Positions 1 through 5,056 of a DNA stretch of 5,056 nucleotides are shown here, in pieces (positions within the stretch are counted from its first letter, which is position 1; the number at the start of each line of letters is the position of its first letter). The notes beneath the pieces were generated by a model. It saw nothing but the letters and a program-made list of their open reading frames with translations. It was not told the DNA's origin and did not search any database. The stretch comes from Nitrospiraceae bacterium. GTDB taxonomy: Bacteria > Nitrospirota > Nitrospiria > Nitrospirales > UBA8639. The stretch is taken from the NCBI GenBank assembly GCA_003523945.1, contig DOFS01000571.1, positions 15,238 to 20,293 on the forward strand, written 5' to 3'. Position numbers and translations under genes: made by a program.

Positions 1-20
1 CTGGACGAGCCTTTTTGAAC
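1..20 (+). repeat. 3' end of a dispersed palindromic element (copy B, cut by window edge)
   Basis: The first 20 bases match 4674-4693 at 18 of 20 positions, including the core CTGGACG, the T-run and GAAC. That second stretch is the 3' arm of the full element copy behind the STAS gene. The match stops after the GAAC. Only the right arm is in the window, so the 5' part must lie to the left of it. Orientation is the same as the other two copies. From memory, Nitrospira genomes carry many elements ending this way; I cannot check that here. Confidence 0.7.
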
Positions 21-48
21 ATCCTGCAAGGTTGTATATAGATCTGAT

Positions 49-366: not shown

Positions 367-1194
367 TTGTCAGCGCCACTGACGTCATATTATTGCTTCT
401 TGAATGCAGCAAAAGCACTTCTTTCGGCTAAAAACCATCTCATAACTGAAAGCCATGGTGTTGGTGGCCGTTCTGAGCCGGGGCATAAGTCTCTTGCAAA
501 TGTAATCGTTGATTTTAAGGGGGGCGGCATACTTCCCAGTTTAAGTAAATATTTGGCAGAGCCAGATAACGCCGGTAAGAATTTCACCCTTCAAGATCTC
601 CTTTGGCAAATACCATTTATCCATCGTGCTTACTGTCTCACCTATAAATCTGCAATTGAATTATTTATTCCATTACAAGAAAATTGCTTCATGCGGAAGG
701 ATCGTTCAAGAGAAGCCTGGTTCCAAGCCCAAATTGATAAAAGATATATAAATGCCCATACGAAGAGCGTAATCAAGCCAGGTTTTGAACTATTTGAGGA
801 AGGAAGGAAATGCTTCATTCAGAGAAAACGACGTTTTAAGTGGTCTGGAAGGGACATAGAAAACAGCATTACCTCTTTCTCGAAATACCACAAGCAAATA
901 CGAAGAAGAGTTGTTCCAATATATTCATCAGAAAACAGATGGTATCTAAAAAAATCGGTAGTAGGCCATGGTAAGCTTGTAAATTCTCAGTTGGTCCTCA
1001 TTTTTTCTGCGATGCATAGGCTAAGCGAGCTTAGCCGATATGACCCAGTTGCCTTTTCTGGGCATTTTAATGTTAATCATAACTGGCTTTTGTCTGAATT
1101 TATTCGTACGGCACCGAACCAGTTTATTTACGGAATGGCATCAGAAATCACTGGTTTGGAATTTATCAAACCAGATGCGTTCTGGAGCTTCTAA
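367..1194 (+). CDS. Open 3' part of the YaaC-like gene (275 codons from a TTG)
   Basis: This is the longest stretch free of stops in the frame, and the form an automatic caller would report as a hypothetical protein. TTG 367 is unlikely to be a natural start. It lies inside what looks like a conserved helix, no ribosome binding site precedes it, and there is no ATG, GTG or TTG between the TGA at 277 and this codon. If translated, the product would lack about 69 N-terminal residues. What remains is a soluble, basic protein with no signal peptide or membrane segment, a cluster of Lys/Arg around residues 153-182 (RKRRFKW, RRRVVP), the HGVGGR motif at 30-35 and the HRLSELSRYDP segment at 217-227. 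It ends TAA at 1192-1194, 195 bp before the end of the convergent recQ. Function unknown; a residual product is possible but doubtful. Confidence 0.5.
   Translation: MSAPLTSYYCFLNAAKALLSAKNHLITESHGVGGRSEPGHKSLANVIVDFKGGGILPSLSKYLAEPDNAGKNFTLQDLLWQIPFIHRAYCLTYKSAIELFIPLQENCFMRKDRSREAWFQAQIDKRYINAHTKSVIKPGFELFEEGRKCFIQRKRRFKWSGRDIENSITSFSKYHKQIRRRVVPIYSSENRWYLKKSVVGHGKLVNSQLVLIFSAMHRLSELSRYDPVAFSGHFNVNHNWLLSEFIRTAPNQFIYGMASEITGLEFIKPDAFWSF
1019..1036. repeat. 8+2+8 bp perfect inverted repeat inside the YaaC-like gene
   Basis: GGCTAAGC (1019-1026) and GCTTAGCC (1029-1036) are exact reverse complements around a GA spacer. The repeat lies within the codons for RLSELSR. An 8-bp arm with a short spacer is expected about once by chance in a window of this size, so no function is claimed. 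Confidence 0.3.
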
Positions 1195-1389: not shown

Positions 1390-3846
1390 TCAGCTTTTTC
1401 CATGAACGACGCGGTAGAGGCGGAGTTGGCCGTAATCGTAGAGGTTGCCGAGTAGCTCTTTGGCGCCGGTGAGATTGCCAAACCCTGTTTTCTCGAAGGC
1501 CGCTGCCATTTCTAATTCCTGCTCCGGTGTCCACAGTTGGGAAAGGTCTACGGGCTCACCCGCTTGGATGGCTTGTTCCAGGTGTCCATAGATGGTGCTG
1601 GTGACTAACCCACGCTCCCTGGCGATTTGTTCGACCGAATGCCCCGCCAGAAAATAGCGTAAGGTTTGATTGACGGTATCTCCAAGCGGCCTTTTTCTGG
1701 CCGGCCTGTTGAAAAAGTCTGCCAGCGGCGTTCTCTGGTCTTGGTCGTCCTCACGTACTTCGCGTACTCTCCGGGCGCCAATTCCCCTGCGGCCTTGCCC
1801 GTGGGAAAGGGGGTCTTGGCGTCCATGGGATTGGGCGGGTGAAATTGTGGACCTTTCTGAACTGGCCGTTTCTTCATCACCTTCTAAATCGTGTTGGTTC
1901 TTAAAATCTTTTTGATTGGTCGCCGGGGTCTGATTCCCTAAAGAAGGTGCAGGGGAAAGATTTGACTCTTTCGGAATGGTCAGGGGGGCGTAGTCCTCCA
2001 GGTGTCTTGCAATAACGGCGAGAAACTTGGGGCCAAACTCCTGTAGTTTCCGATTCCCTACTCCACTAATCTGAAGAAATTCCTGTTCATTGGTCGGATA
2101 GTCCCGTGCCATCTGGCGTAACGCCACGTCGGAGAATATGACATAGGCAGGGACGTCTGCCTCATCGGCTAAGGTCTTACGCAGTTGGCGGAGGCGAGTG
2201 AATAACATCTCGTCGTGACCCAGGTCCTCGACAGAGGATGGATTCCGCTCTGGTGTGCTCATGGGCTTGGTGAGCATGAGTGTCTTGGGCTCTTGAAGGA
2301 AATGCTGGCCCTGGTCGGTGACTTCCAGCACCGTGAATGGGTCTGCCGTTTGATGGAGATATCCCAGCCGTATGAGTTCCCGACTGATGGAAGCCCATTC
2401 GGGCCGGCGGTGGGCTGTCCCTTTCCCGTAGCTGGTTAACCGATCATGACCCCATCGGCGGATTTTTTCGGTGTTAGCTCCAGTGAGGACGCCGATGATG
2501 TGATTGAGTCCAACGCTAAACCCGCTTGTTCCGCATACCTCTTCAACGCAGGAGAGCACGGTCTGCGTGGCCTCTGTGGCATCGAAGGTGTCCCTGGGCG
2601 TCAGGCAGTTATCGCATCCGCCACAGTTTTCGGATTCAACATGTTCTCCAAAATATTGGAGCAACGTGCGGCGCCGGCATGTGGCACACTCCGCATAGTG
2701 CACCATTTCCTGTAATTGCCTATTGGCGATCTGCTGTTCCTGGAGGTTAGGTTTCTCATTGATGAAGCGTTGCTGTTTGACCGTATCCCCGGCGCTGAAG
2801 AGCAGGACGCACTCGCTTGGCAGGCCATCGCGCCCGGCGCGGCCGGTCTCTTGATAATAGCTTTCGAGGTTTTTTGGTAAATCGTAGTGAATGACAAATC
2901 GCACGTTAGGCTTGTTGATTCCCATTCCGAAGGCAATGGTGGCGCAGATCACCTGGGTCTCATCACGAAGAAACAATTCTTGATGCCGTGTGCGCTCCTC
3001 GGCACTCAGTCCTGCATGATAGGCCTGTGCGTTGATGCCATAATGCTGTAATCGTTCCGCCACACTTTCTGTCGTCTTCCGGCTCTGGCAGTAGAGAATT
3101 CCGCAGTCCTTGGGGCGTTTCCGGAGAAACGCGAGGACTTGTCCAAACGGATTGTCCTTGGGCTGCACCTGGTAGGTCAGATTGGGCCGGTTAAAACTGG
3201 CCACGTAGCATGCCGGATCACGCAAGCGCAGGAGTGTCACAATGTCTTTTTGCACACGCTCCGTGGCCGTGGCGGTGAGTGCGATAATCGGGAGGGTAGG
3301 GACCTGATCTCGTAGTTCTACGAGTCGCCGGTATTCGGGCCGGAAATCATGCCCCCATTCACTGATGCAGTGGGCTTCATCAATGGCCAGCAAATTAACC
3401 TGGAAATTCCTGAGCAGGCTGAGGTATCCGGGGAGCATGAGCCGTTCCGGAGCCATGTAGAGCAGTCGGTAGTCACCCTGGTGTAGACCCCGTAACCGTG
3501 CCTGAGATTCCTGCGCGGTCAGAGAGGAGTTGAGAAACGTTGCGGCAATTCCATTGGCCCTGAGTCCATCCACTTGATCTTTCATCAGGGCAATGAGCGG
3601 GGAGACAACGATCGTTAAGCCAGATCGGGCCAGTGCCGGTAACTGAAAACACAGCGATTTTCCTCCCCCTGTAGGCAAGAGTGCCACCACGTCCCGCTCA
3701 GCGAGGACATCCCGAATGATCTCTTCCTGTAAAGGCCGAAAGGCGGTGAAGCCAAAATGTTCCTTTAACAGAGAGTGAAGGGGATGGTGTATTGAGGTCT
3801 GTGGGTGTGGGGAATTGGTGTGTTGATGAAATTGGGTGTTTTTCAC
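1390..3846 (-). CDS. recQ: ATP-dependent 3'-5' DNA helicase RecQ with extra C-terminal HTH domain
   Basis: RecQ unwinds DNA in recombination and replication-fork repair in the cytoplasm. The 818 residues show the superfamily 2 motifs: motif 0 FRPLQ (36-40), Walker A TGGGKS (59-64), DEAH (156-159), TATAT (191-195), FGMGINKP (306-313) and QETGRAGRDG (332-341). A zinc site follows (C390, C408, C411, C414; C387 is an extra Cys), then an RQC winged-helix region (about 420-525) and an HRDC domain (about 545-618). After a polar linker comes a C-terminal helix-turn-helix domain (about 722-818, with IARERGL...STIYGHL) like that at the end of some other RecQ-type helicases. E. coli RecQ has 609 residues; the excess is this tail plus a His-rich N-terminal leader. 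Residues about 684-714 are encoded by a copy of the dispersed palindromic element, without a frame break. The start is GTG 3846; no good Shine-Dalgarno is visible and no other standard start lies before the helicase core. Family certain; exact start less so. Confidence 0.96.
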   Translation of the reverse strand: MKNTQFHQHTNSPHPQTSIHHPLHSLLKEHFGFTAFRPLQEEIIRDVLAERDVVALLPTGGGKSLCFQLPALARSGLTIVVSPLIALMKDQVDGLRANGIAATFLNSSLTAQESQARLRGLHQGDYRLLYMAPERLMLPGYLSLLRNFQVNLLAIDEAHCISEWGHDFRPEYRRLVELRDQVPTLPIIALTATATERVQKDIVTLLRLRDPACYVASFNRPNLTYQVQPKDNPFGQVLAFLRKRPKDCGILYCQSRKTTESVAERLQHYGINAQAYHAGLSAEERTRHQELFLRDETQVICATIAFGMGINKPNVRFVIHYDLPKNLESYYQETGRAGRDGLPSECVLLFSAGDTVKQQRFINEKPNLQEQQIANRQLQEMVHYAECATCRRRTLLQYFGEHVESENCGGCDNCLTPRDTFDATEATQTVLSCVEEVCGTSGFSVGLNHIIGVLTGANTEKIRRWGHDRLTSYGKGTAHRRPEWASISRELIRLGYLHQTADPFTVLEVTDQGQHFLQEPKTLMLTKPMSTPERNPSSVEDLGHDEMLFTRLRQLRKTLADEADVPAYVIFSDVALRQMARDYPTNEQEFLQISGVGNRKLQEFGPKFLAVIARHLEDYAPLTIPKESNLSPAPSLGNQTPATNQKDFKNQHDLEGDEETASSERSTISPAQSHGRQDPLSHGQGRRGIGARRVREVREDDQDQRTPLADFFNRPARKRPLGDTVNQTLRYFLAGHSVEQIARERGLVTSTIYGHLEQAIQAGEPVDLSQLWTPEQELEMAAAFEKTGFGNLTGAKELLGNLYDYGQLRLYRVVHGKS
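1706..1798 (+). repeat. Palindromic element copy C, lying within the recQ reading frame
   Basis: Aligned without any gap to the intergenic copy starting at 4582, these 93 bases match at about 66 positions (hand count). Landmarks keep exactly the same spacing: CTGTTGAAAAAG at offset 0, CTCAC-TACT around offset 50, GGCCTTGC at offset 85. The tip is a small hairpin, GTAC (1755-1758) with GTAC (1764-1767), equivalent to TAC/GTA at the tip of copy A. The two blocks that differ most are the opposite arms of the inner stem. In this copy TTGG (1741-1744) can still pair with CCAA (1778-1781). The terminal T-rich arm of copy A is not preserved here. The element is antisense to recQ, and its reverse strand encodes linker residues about 684-714 including TPLADFFN. 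Confidence 0.75.
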
Positions 3847-4241
3847 AATTGGAGTTGTCGTAAAAATTGGGTATGTGGATGACTTGTCTTGATCATGAGT
3901 CGACCTCTATCCGGGAGTGAGCCTAGCCATATTGCGGTCTGCCACGAGGCACGATTTGTGGAGAGATATCACCTAGTTACCCTGCCGCGGCTCTTCATTT
4001 CTTACACCTATCCGTTTCACCGGTCTCCAGCGAGCTTTCTCCGATTTTTCTCATTTTCTTCAATATTTGTGCAGGTTTTCCCCAACTGAGGATGGTGCAA
4101 GATTTGTCATATTGCTTCATCGGTAAAGAGGCTGTCTACCTCTTTTCGCCGCAAGACTCTCGACATTATGAGGAAATCTGGGGCATTGGACAAGAATCAC
4201 AGGAAATTGCCGACAAGAAAGAAGTAACCTTTGGTGATGAC
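3847..4241. other. Divergent intergenic region between recQ and the STAS gene
   Basis: About 395 bp separates the two starts, so both promoters should lie here. I do not see a convincing pair of -35 and -10 boxes on either strand. TTGTCA at 4104-4109 resembles a -35 box, but nothing good lies 16-18 bases after it. The open frame from ATG 4092 runs into the STAS gene, but its first 50 codons resemble no domain and its GAGG directly abuts the ATG. I read it as leader rather than protein. The rightward frame at 3889-4089 has composition unlike its neighbours and no ribosome binding site, so I treat it as non-coding. Confidence 0.4.
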
Positions 4242-4577
4242 ATGCATGTAACCGAACGAATGCAAGATACCACGCTGGTCTTGATGATTTCAGGCCGAGT
4301 AACCGTGTACTCCAGGAAAGTCTTTCAGGGGATGGTGAGGGCTGCCAGTTTCTCTGGCGCCAAGCATATCATTTTCAACATGCAGGGAGTCACGTACATG
4401 GACACCGTTGCCTTGGGTGTATTGGGGCTTGCCTACCTCGACCTGAATCAACATCATGTGGCCATGAGTGTTGTTGAACCTAGACAGCCGGTTAAAACTC
4501 TACTTGAAAATGCCAATTTTTCTGAACTCATTCCCACGTATCCCACCGAAGAGACGGCTTTGAAAGCCATCCAATAA
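4242..4577 (+). CDS. STAS-domain protein, probable anti-sigma-factor antagonist
   Basis: The 111-residue product has the full size and layout of a single STAS domain as in SpoIIAA/RsbV. It has an N-terminal strand pair (VTERMQDTTLVLMISGRVT), a helix, a central strand HIIFNMQGV (42-50), the loop YMDTVALGVLG (52-62), a second helix and strand (HVAMSVVEP), and a C-terminal helix region with VKTLLENANF. In SpoIIAA the residue after the loop Asp is the Ser phosphorylated by the partner kinase; here it is Thr55 after Asp54, so phospho-control is possible. Such proteins bind an anti-sigma kinase and release its sigma factor, but no kinase, phosphatase or sigma gene is visible nearby. ATG 4242 was chosen because the domain starts there and GGTGAT (4233-4238) can serve as a weak Shine-Dalgarno. 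An in-frame ATG at 4092 would add 50 residues of no recognisable type. The palindromic element follows the stop within about 4 bases. Confidence 0.8.
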   Translation: MHVTERMQDTTLVLMISGRVTVYSRKVFQGMVRAASFSGAKHIIFNMQGVTYMDTVALGVLGLAYLDLNQHHVAMSVVEPRQPVKTLLENANFSELIPTYPTEETALKAIQ

Positions 4578-4580
4578 GGG

Positions 4581-4693
4581 GCTGTTGAAAAAGGCCGCCA
4601 ACTGCGTTTTCGCCATTTTTCCGTGCTCACATACTCCGTGTACGCTCTGCGCGCAAAAATGGCTGTGGCCTTGCTGGACGGGCTTTTTTGAAC
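4581..4693 (+). repeat. Full-length dispersed palindromic element (copy A)
   Basis: The element can fold into one long imperfect hairpin. The outer arm TTGAAAAAGGCCG (4585-4597) faces CGGGCTTTTTTGAA (4679-4692), the inner arm GCCATTTTT (4612-4620) pairs perfectly with AAAAATGGC (4655-4663), and TAC (4632-4634) pairs with GTA (4640-4642) at the tip. It shares its body with the copy inside recQ and its right arm with the copy at the window's left edge. It begins within about 4 bases of the STAS stop (TAA 4575-4577). With six T at 4684-4689 after a stem it could also act as a transcription terminator for that gene, although the stem next to the T-run is imperfect. From memory this type of element is common in Nitrospira; no transposase is present here, so movement, if any, would be in trans. 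Confidence 0.78.
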
Positions 4694-5056
4694 CGACCCG
4701 AGGCCTCTGGCCTTCAAGGTTGCCATGGGGGGTTTTGCCTATGGAGAACAGTAGTATTCAACACTCCCAATAGATTTCCGGGTGCGCTTCTCCTTTTTCA
4801 TCGTATAAACTGATGTGAGTCAATTAGATCAGCTCCGGGGCTGGAGAGTGGATTCGAGCCTAAGCTGAACCGAGCGGAATCTTCAGGGATTTAATGAAAT
4901 TCTGGTGACCATGAGCATTCAATCGGCAGGAAAGGGAGAATATGGTATCCTCGTCTGGACCTGCCAAAGAGGGGACAAGTCCGGGAAGAGGATATGTGAT
5001 GACGGACTAAGGGCGACTCGTCTGAAGTTCTGGAGTTTATCAAAGAGAAGCCATCG
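4694..5056. other. Right-edge region without a firmly supported gene
   Basis: No strong coding signal or RNA gene is visible. Near the edge there are rightward candidates. One frame from ATG 4911 stays open to the end of the window (48 full codons) but has no obvious domain. ATG 4942 has a good Shine-Dalgarno (AAGGGAG at 4932-4938) but reaches TAA at 5008-5010 after 22 codons, and another in-frame ATG at 4999 follows AAGAGG. Directly after that TAA, the +1-shifted frame reads GDSSEVLEFIKEKPS to the edge, which looks more protein-like. A small gene starting here, possibly frameshifted, is conceivable but cannot be decided from the window. Confidence 0.3.

Follow-up and report, generated by a model that had tools for sequence, protein, structure and literature searches.

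The capture of mobile palindromes in frame within genes is best known in Rickettsia; enterobacteria and a small number of other bacteria also provide cases, according to a review (PMC10969869). The same review describes Rickettsia palindromic elements (RPE) as dispersed palindromic repeats of ~150 bp, belonging to several families and lying in frame inside protein genes, with 44 RPE insertions in the genes of R. conorii (PMC10969869). In enterobacteria, the mobile repeats RU-1 (ERIC), RU-2 and RU-3 are 103–168 bp long, carry open frames and are intergenic, with some fused in frame to genes (PMC2759123). REP sequences have been counted in Nitrospira moscoviensis, and the accessible part of that report gives neither a sequence nor an in-frame case (PMC12306157). 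In the literature searched, covering part of the matches listed, no description was found of the element family reported here or of a repeat in RecQ.

In this study, we describe a dispersed palindromic repeat of Nitrospirota, of which one copy is likely now incorporated in a repair protein, as judged from its sequence. The element resembles RPE in being palindromic, dispersed and in frame with the frame kept (in recQ of three genomes and in the protein P0007), and differs in that its host belongs to another phylum and only 1 of 45 places in the window genome lies well inside a long frame. The original prediction had drawn a parallel with RPE, which holds for the behaviour of in-frame insertion but not for the family as a whole in the window genome. 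Since its copies lie mostly outside long frames and the likeness rests on behaviour and not on sequence, we regard the element as one that would work like RPE and do not class it as RPE. It is also similar by description to RU-1 (ERIC), RU-2 and RU-3, which are short mobile repeats with open frames and some gene fusions in an unrelated host. Like MITEs, it is short, dispersed in many copies, bounded by terminal inverted repeats, able to form a hairpin and devoid of a transposase gene; unlike them, its outermost bases vary between copies and are largely complementary within a copy (by eye). This was seen for the outermost 6–10 bases of L003, L006, L269, L276, L279 and L288, and such varied but complementary ends suggest paired evolution or insertion into palindromic targets.

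The window, meaning the whole stretch of 5,056 nt that was analysed (G000:C251:15238-20293), comes from a genome of 4.9 Mb in 638 contigs. It carries a YaaC-like gene (367-1194, forward strand), recQ (1390-3846, reverse strand, 818 codons) and a STAS-domain gene (4092-4577, forward strand), after which comes an intergenic copy of the element, copy A (4576-4701, forward strand, short subtype). The RecQ helicase domain set in Pfam (DEAD, Helicase_C, RecQ_Zn_bind, RQC and HRDC) is complete in the window protein, which also has HTH_40. The insert lies between HRDC (ending at residue 612) and HTH_40 (starting at residue 724), and these Pfam limits confirmed the claim that the copy sits inside the recQ frame in the linker between HRDC and the helix-turn-helix. 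Residues 626-717 of this linker (1696-1971, reverse strand) are predicted to be disordered: in an AlphaFold2 model built with 36 sequences (mean pLDDT 76.5, pTM 0.56), pLDDT is below 50 for residues 626-669 and 671-717, and the flanking helices end at 618 and start at 723. This fits the proposal that the linker position explains why the copy is tolerated, and tolerance would then be due to the unstructured character of the linker.

The element in recQ had been delimited as 93 nt (1706-1798) matching 4582-4674 without gaps. The match is exactly 66 of 93 identical positions, 4582 is the best other placement of the recQ segment within the window, and the pair ranks first in a repeat scan of the window (96 nt at 71%). 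This core stood, but the true span is 165 nt (1703-1867, reverse strand), as seen from alignment to long copies and a covariance-model hit. The copy had been traced only to 1798 because the reference, copy A, is of the short subtype; in G020, G026 and G015, dispersed copies carry an additional ~50 nt and represent the long subtype, to which the recQ copy belongs. Similarly, the RecQ residues first assigned to it (684-714) are the stretch in common with the shorter subtype, and the whole copy, with a length of 55 codons, corresponds roughly to residues 660-715. The insert aligns over bases 6-165 to L276, an intergenic-type copy of another genus (G026), with 131 identities, 26 mismatches and 5 gap columns, and over bases 6-161 to L269, with 128 identities, 25 mismatches and 5 gap columns; bases 6-161 align to copies of G020 and G015. 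Its length is divisible by three, and the frame is open through the copy.

The terminal arm GGCCTGTTGAAAAAG (1703-1717) matches the element ends and is complementary at 12 of 16 outer positions to the other arm, CTTTCTGAACTGGCC (1853-1867), and both ends are present in the covariance-model alignment of the G029 orthologue. On either side of the insert, at 1697-1703 and 1862-1868, lies a 7-bp direct repeat, CTGGCCG (coding strand, CGGCCAG), a single copy of which remains at the empty sites of G036 and G046. This repeat may be a target duplication or a substrate for deletion, both of which would give the same picture. The ~27 linker codons adjoining the insert (window ~1868-1950) are patchy among species of the genus, and among the loci fetched their matches were in recQ only.

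The covariance model was built from 17 aligned intact copies with recQ excluded. The consensus folds from end to end as a single hairpin of 39 pairs, of which 9 are changed on both sides, with a summed covariation term of only -0.24 kcal/mol. Without any recQ copy in it, the model found the window recQ copy genome-wide (40.3 bits, E 9.4e-7), gave a weak match to the recQ copy of G029 (26.5 bits) and missed that of G047, which was recovered by BLAST with the window insert (81%). Copy A, itself in the training set, scored 122.6 bits with a hairpin z of -2.49, and BLAST with it located 25 places in the window genome, the recQ place having an E of 1.9e-6. The window also contains the tail of a third copy (1-28, forward strand), which starts before the window and is therefore cut off (14.6 bits, E 0.095; bases 1-20 in the repeat scan; genome hit C251:15025-15099). 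In the window genome, 55 model matches at E<=1 reduce to 46 distinct places after removal of 9 opposite-strand echoes. At E<=0.001, copies were detected in 43 of the 48 family genomes (best 72 candidates at most scored per genome); at E<=1e-5, they were detected in 104 of the 295 phylum genomes sampled, or 26 of 135 genera (best 11 at most per genome). An element family of this size would be helpful for genome annotation in the phylum. The genomes with an insert in recQ are rich in the element, with 39 (G000), 52 (G047) and 37 (G029) matches, and the relatives of the P0007 host, G020, G026 and G027, have 60–72 each (best 72 candidates at most scored per genome). A known RNA family was rejected as an identity, as comparison of the window with Rfam yielded no match at E<=1.

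Of the 48 family genomes, 36 contained RecQ, and 30 loci were retrieved: 21 had a linker readable to the helix-turn-helix, 2 were truncated, and 7 were distant RecQs of another genus outside the linker comparison. Presence in only some orthologues, as the original prediction had proposed to check, was indeed what the alignment revealed. The insert occurs in 3 of the 21 readable orthologues, namely G000 and G047 (165 nt each) and G029 (141 nt), and in none of the other 18; the 24 nt by which G029 differs, in frame, is the sole length difference among the three inserts. The segment is also not conserved in RecQ generally: among 120 RecQ-like proteins listed out of 180 found, it was present in 2, one being the window's own, and the linkers in this list are 56–68 residues long except in P0001 (144 residues, the window's own) and P0007 (108 residues). 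The flanks of G036 and G046 can be aligned with no insert between them, joining as ...AAACGGCCAGAA... Sisters of two carriers have no insert, and one of them holds an apparent 18-nt end of the element: G035 retains GGCCAGTTCAAAAAGGCC, which looks like a left-end footprint or scar and is placed beside the window genome with support of 95/93 in a 25-row core tree and 93/93 in a DNA tree of 12 genomes. An assembly artefact was rejected, because the carriers include one-contig and seven-contig genomes. Placed side by side, the orthologues with an insert, without one and with a probable scar would thus form a series from noncoding repeat to protein, with stages in which the hairpin decays, the frame stays, the peptide diverges and the segment disappears.

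Considering all the above results, we propose, with a probability of roughly 0.87, that the recQ segment is a complete, 165-nt copy of the palindromic element dispersed in Nitrospirota, which was transposed into the linker in an ancestor of the genus and reads in frame as approximately residues 660-715. The observations behind this reading are the near-full-length identity to the family, both arms, the length divisible by three, the open frame, the presence or absence among orthologues and the dispersal of the family. As the element is too short to encode a transposase, it would have been moved by a putative transposase acting in trans. A single insertion within the genus would have been followed by repeated deletion, and the insert is predicted from its frame to be translated as part of RecQ. 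The peptides quoted originally, KTQLAAFFNS for copy A and RTPLADFFNR for RecQ, are both in the sequence, and similar residues appear when the reverse strand of noncoding copies is translated. Copy A is open in two of three frames on the strand equivalent to the recQ reading; therefore, an insertion of suitable length into a flexible linker can lengthen the protein and leave it intact. The present case of in-frame capture is in Nitrospirota, and in a core DNA-repair helicase.

After insertion, the hairpin would have decayed while the frame was retained and the peptide drifted under little constraint. Consistent with this, the three recQ copies have no significant hairpin (z of -1.16, -0.82 and +0.89), whereas 19 of 20 dispersed copies have a z of -1.9 or lower, the remaining one being at -0.43. 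The dN/dS ratio is 0.06–0.08 in the core, 0.16–0.37 in the native linker, 0.44–1.18 in the insert and 0.23–0.26 in the C-terminal domain. Purifying selection on the insert was not supported by these ratios. The codon-position pattern of the recQ frame was weak. The recQ copies thus appear from sequence comparison to keep their frame with a peptide that drifts.

The history of the insert within the genus was less simple than one insertion followed by descent. In the RecQ core tree, the carriers form no clade, and 4 changes are needed among 25 rows, or 3 with DNA of 12 genomes. G000 is placed with G035, G047 with G034, and G029 with G036, G046, G030 and P0006; P0007 falls in an unresolved group with G020, G022, G023 and G025-G028. 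Because the carriers are scattered, the model also needs loss on several occasions, interspecies recombination or more than one insertion. Among the matches listed (17 candidates scored per genome), those reaching the first 50 bases of the long subtype were, within the genus, only in recQ of G000 and G047, which favours one old insertion with several losses over three insertions. We therefore consider the insert to be probably older than this species and patchily lost.

One alternative is that the recQ linker is a preferred target, which the element entered separately in G000, G047 and G029 and again in P0007. Carriers with non-carrier neighbours on the core tree are in keeping with this, and so is P0007, a RecQ of another lineage, which has a short-subtype element at the equivalent linker site (layout by eye); this subtype makes it probably a separate insertion, and at least two insertions at this site are thus likely. 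Within the genus, separate entries are nevertheless unlikely in our opinion, as all three inserts are of the long subtype and have sequence features in common, a likely remnant exists in G035, and the genus has first-50-base matches in the recQ copies alone among the matches listed. A second alternative, to which we assign a similarly low probability, is horizontal exchange of the C-terminal region of recQ between related species, producing the patchy pattern. The scattered carriers would agree with it, and between G000 and G029 synonymous differences affect 5 of 33.5 sites of the insert, a lower share than the 157.5 of 411 for the core, although these counts are small. Against exchange, the tree of the HTH region does not unite the carriers, with one change in 0% of 200 bootstrap trees (the tree is poorly resolved), and the linker adjoining the insert has a high dS of 1.16 for the same pair, again from small counts. 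An old insertion with several losses remains our preferred reading.

It could also be argued that the insert was co-opted for a function, perhaps through a short protein-binding motif in the region of TPLADFFNRPA. Five aligned inserts show no variation in QGRRG and in part of TPLADFFNRPA, and the insert peptide matched one RecQ in each of two lineages, plus a protein of the DNA polymerase III alpha type. Such a role is improbable in view of the dN/dS of the insert compared with that of the core, the change of FF to FS in G047, the 8 residues that split the polymerase copy between LAD and FFN, the neighbouring genomes without the insert, and the similar residues encoded by noncoding copies. That the recQ linker was instead the source of the dispersed family is very improbable; the sequence common to both would be explained, but the segment is missing from 18 of 21 readable orthologues, the family extends to 26 of 135 sampled genera, and the end-to-end hairpin kept by the family is lost in the recQ copies. 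Chance or compositional similarity can be dismissed, with nothing in its favour after the tests, since the insert scores 162 against a shuffle maximum of 28 for L276 (26 for L269; 200 shuffles each) and the 66 identities compare with a maximum of 45 in 300 dinucleotide shuffles, the shuffle control being one of the two tests named in the original prediction as able to refute it, neither of which, the other being conservation of the segment in RecQ, went against it.

Other copies in or near genes were also considered. The 45 places in the window genome, among them frames of 80–206 aa over other copies, were judged by frame length, with Pfam applied to recQ, L062 and L084, and a listing of model matches inside reading frames, proposed at the outset, returned recQ as the only place clearly internal to a long frame. 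L062, in an hsdR-like frame, was rejected as an in-gene copy, as the sequence upstream of the element is unlike the same gene (Pfam). When the insert region (56 residues) was compared with 29 candidates of 450–1430 aa, three proteins matched at E<=1: the window RecQ, P0007 and P0121. P0121, with domains of DNA polymerase III alpha, contains a long-subtype copy that is read in the frame used in recQ and is interrupted by 8 residues; its relatives have no element at that place (17 of 21 loci showed the site), and the 20 residues upstream of the element are unmatched in relatives. It is possible, though we propose it only tentatively, that the element is a protein-building mobile repeat, having entered nearly the same recQ linker codons at least twice (two lineages, two subtypes) and, on one occasion, a gene of the DNA polymerase III alpha type, with one reading frame in all cases (AxS...TPLADFFNRPA). 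If so, the recQ linker would be a hot spot for the conversion of mobile DNA into disordered protein and for its subsequent loss. One of the two other frames is also open, so that the same-frame reading in three cases is not significant.

A search with two element frames in 8 genomes showed that many in-frame genes, as in Rickettsia, are largely absent among the matches listed. Of sixteen stretches retrieved, 13 were read, with open frames of 187–593 aa in this genome and relatives. In 8 of the 13 (L164-L168, L171, L172 and L176), the element lies just before the likely start codon, and L173-L175 were left unsorted (both by eye). In L169 (G041, 1872-3575, reverse strand), the element forms the last ~40 residues of a protein with Proton_antipo_M, of the NADH-quinone oxidoreductase type (Pfam), and in L170 it is near the N-terminus of a histidine kinase (Pfam). 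The L170 element peptide had one candidate among predicted proteins of 326–1038 aa, which did not match, so that the L170 read-through is missing from the predicted proteins compared. Copies directly before a likely start, by eye, were those of L164 (G030), L165 (G046), L166, L167 (G029), L168 (G036), L171, L172, L176 and L281, and they may have an effect on translation initiation; in two genomes, the element precedes a folD-type gene.

A second kind of short sequence (CCTTCG...CTCAGG type) is nested near the right end of the element in L005 (~729-831), L019, L023 and L026, and the 8-residue piece in P0121 (residues 66-73) may be of this kind. Further element copies lie within ~3 kb of recQ, at G020:C214:7486-7590, G030:C1:3190548-3190640, G038:C99:13012-13101 and G039:C95:6505-6594, and in the window at 1-28 and 4576-4701.
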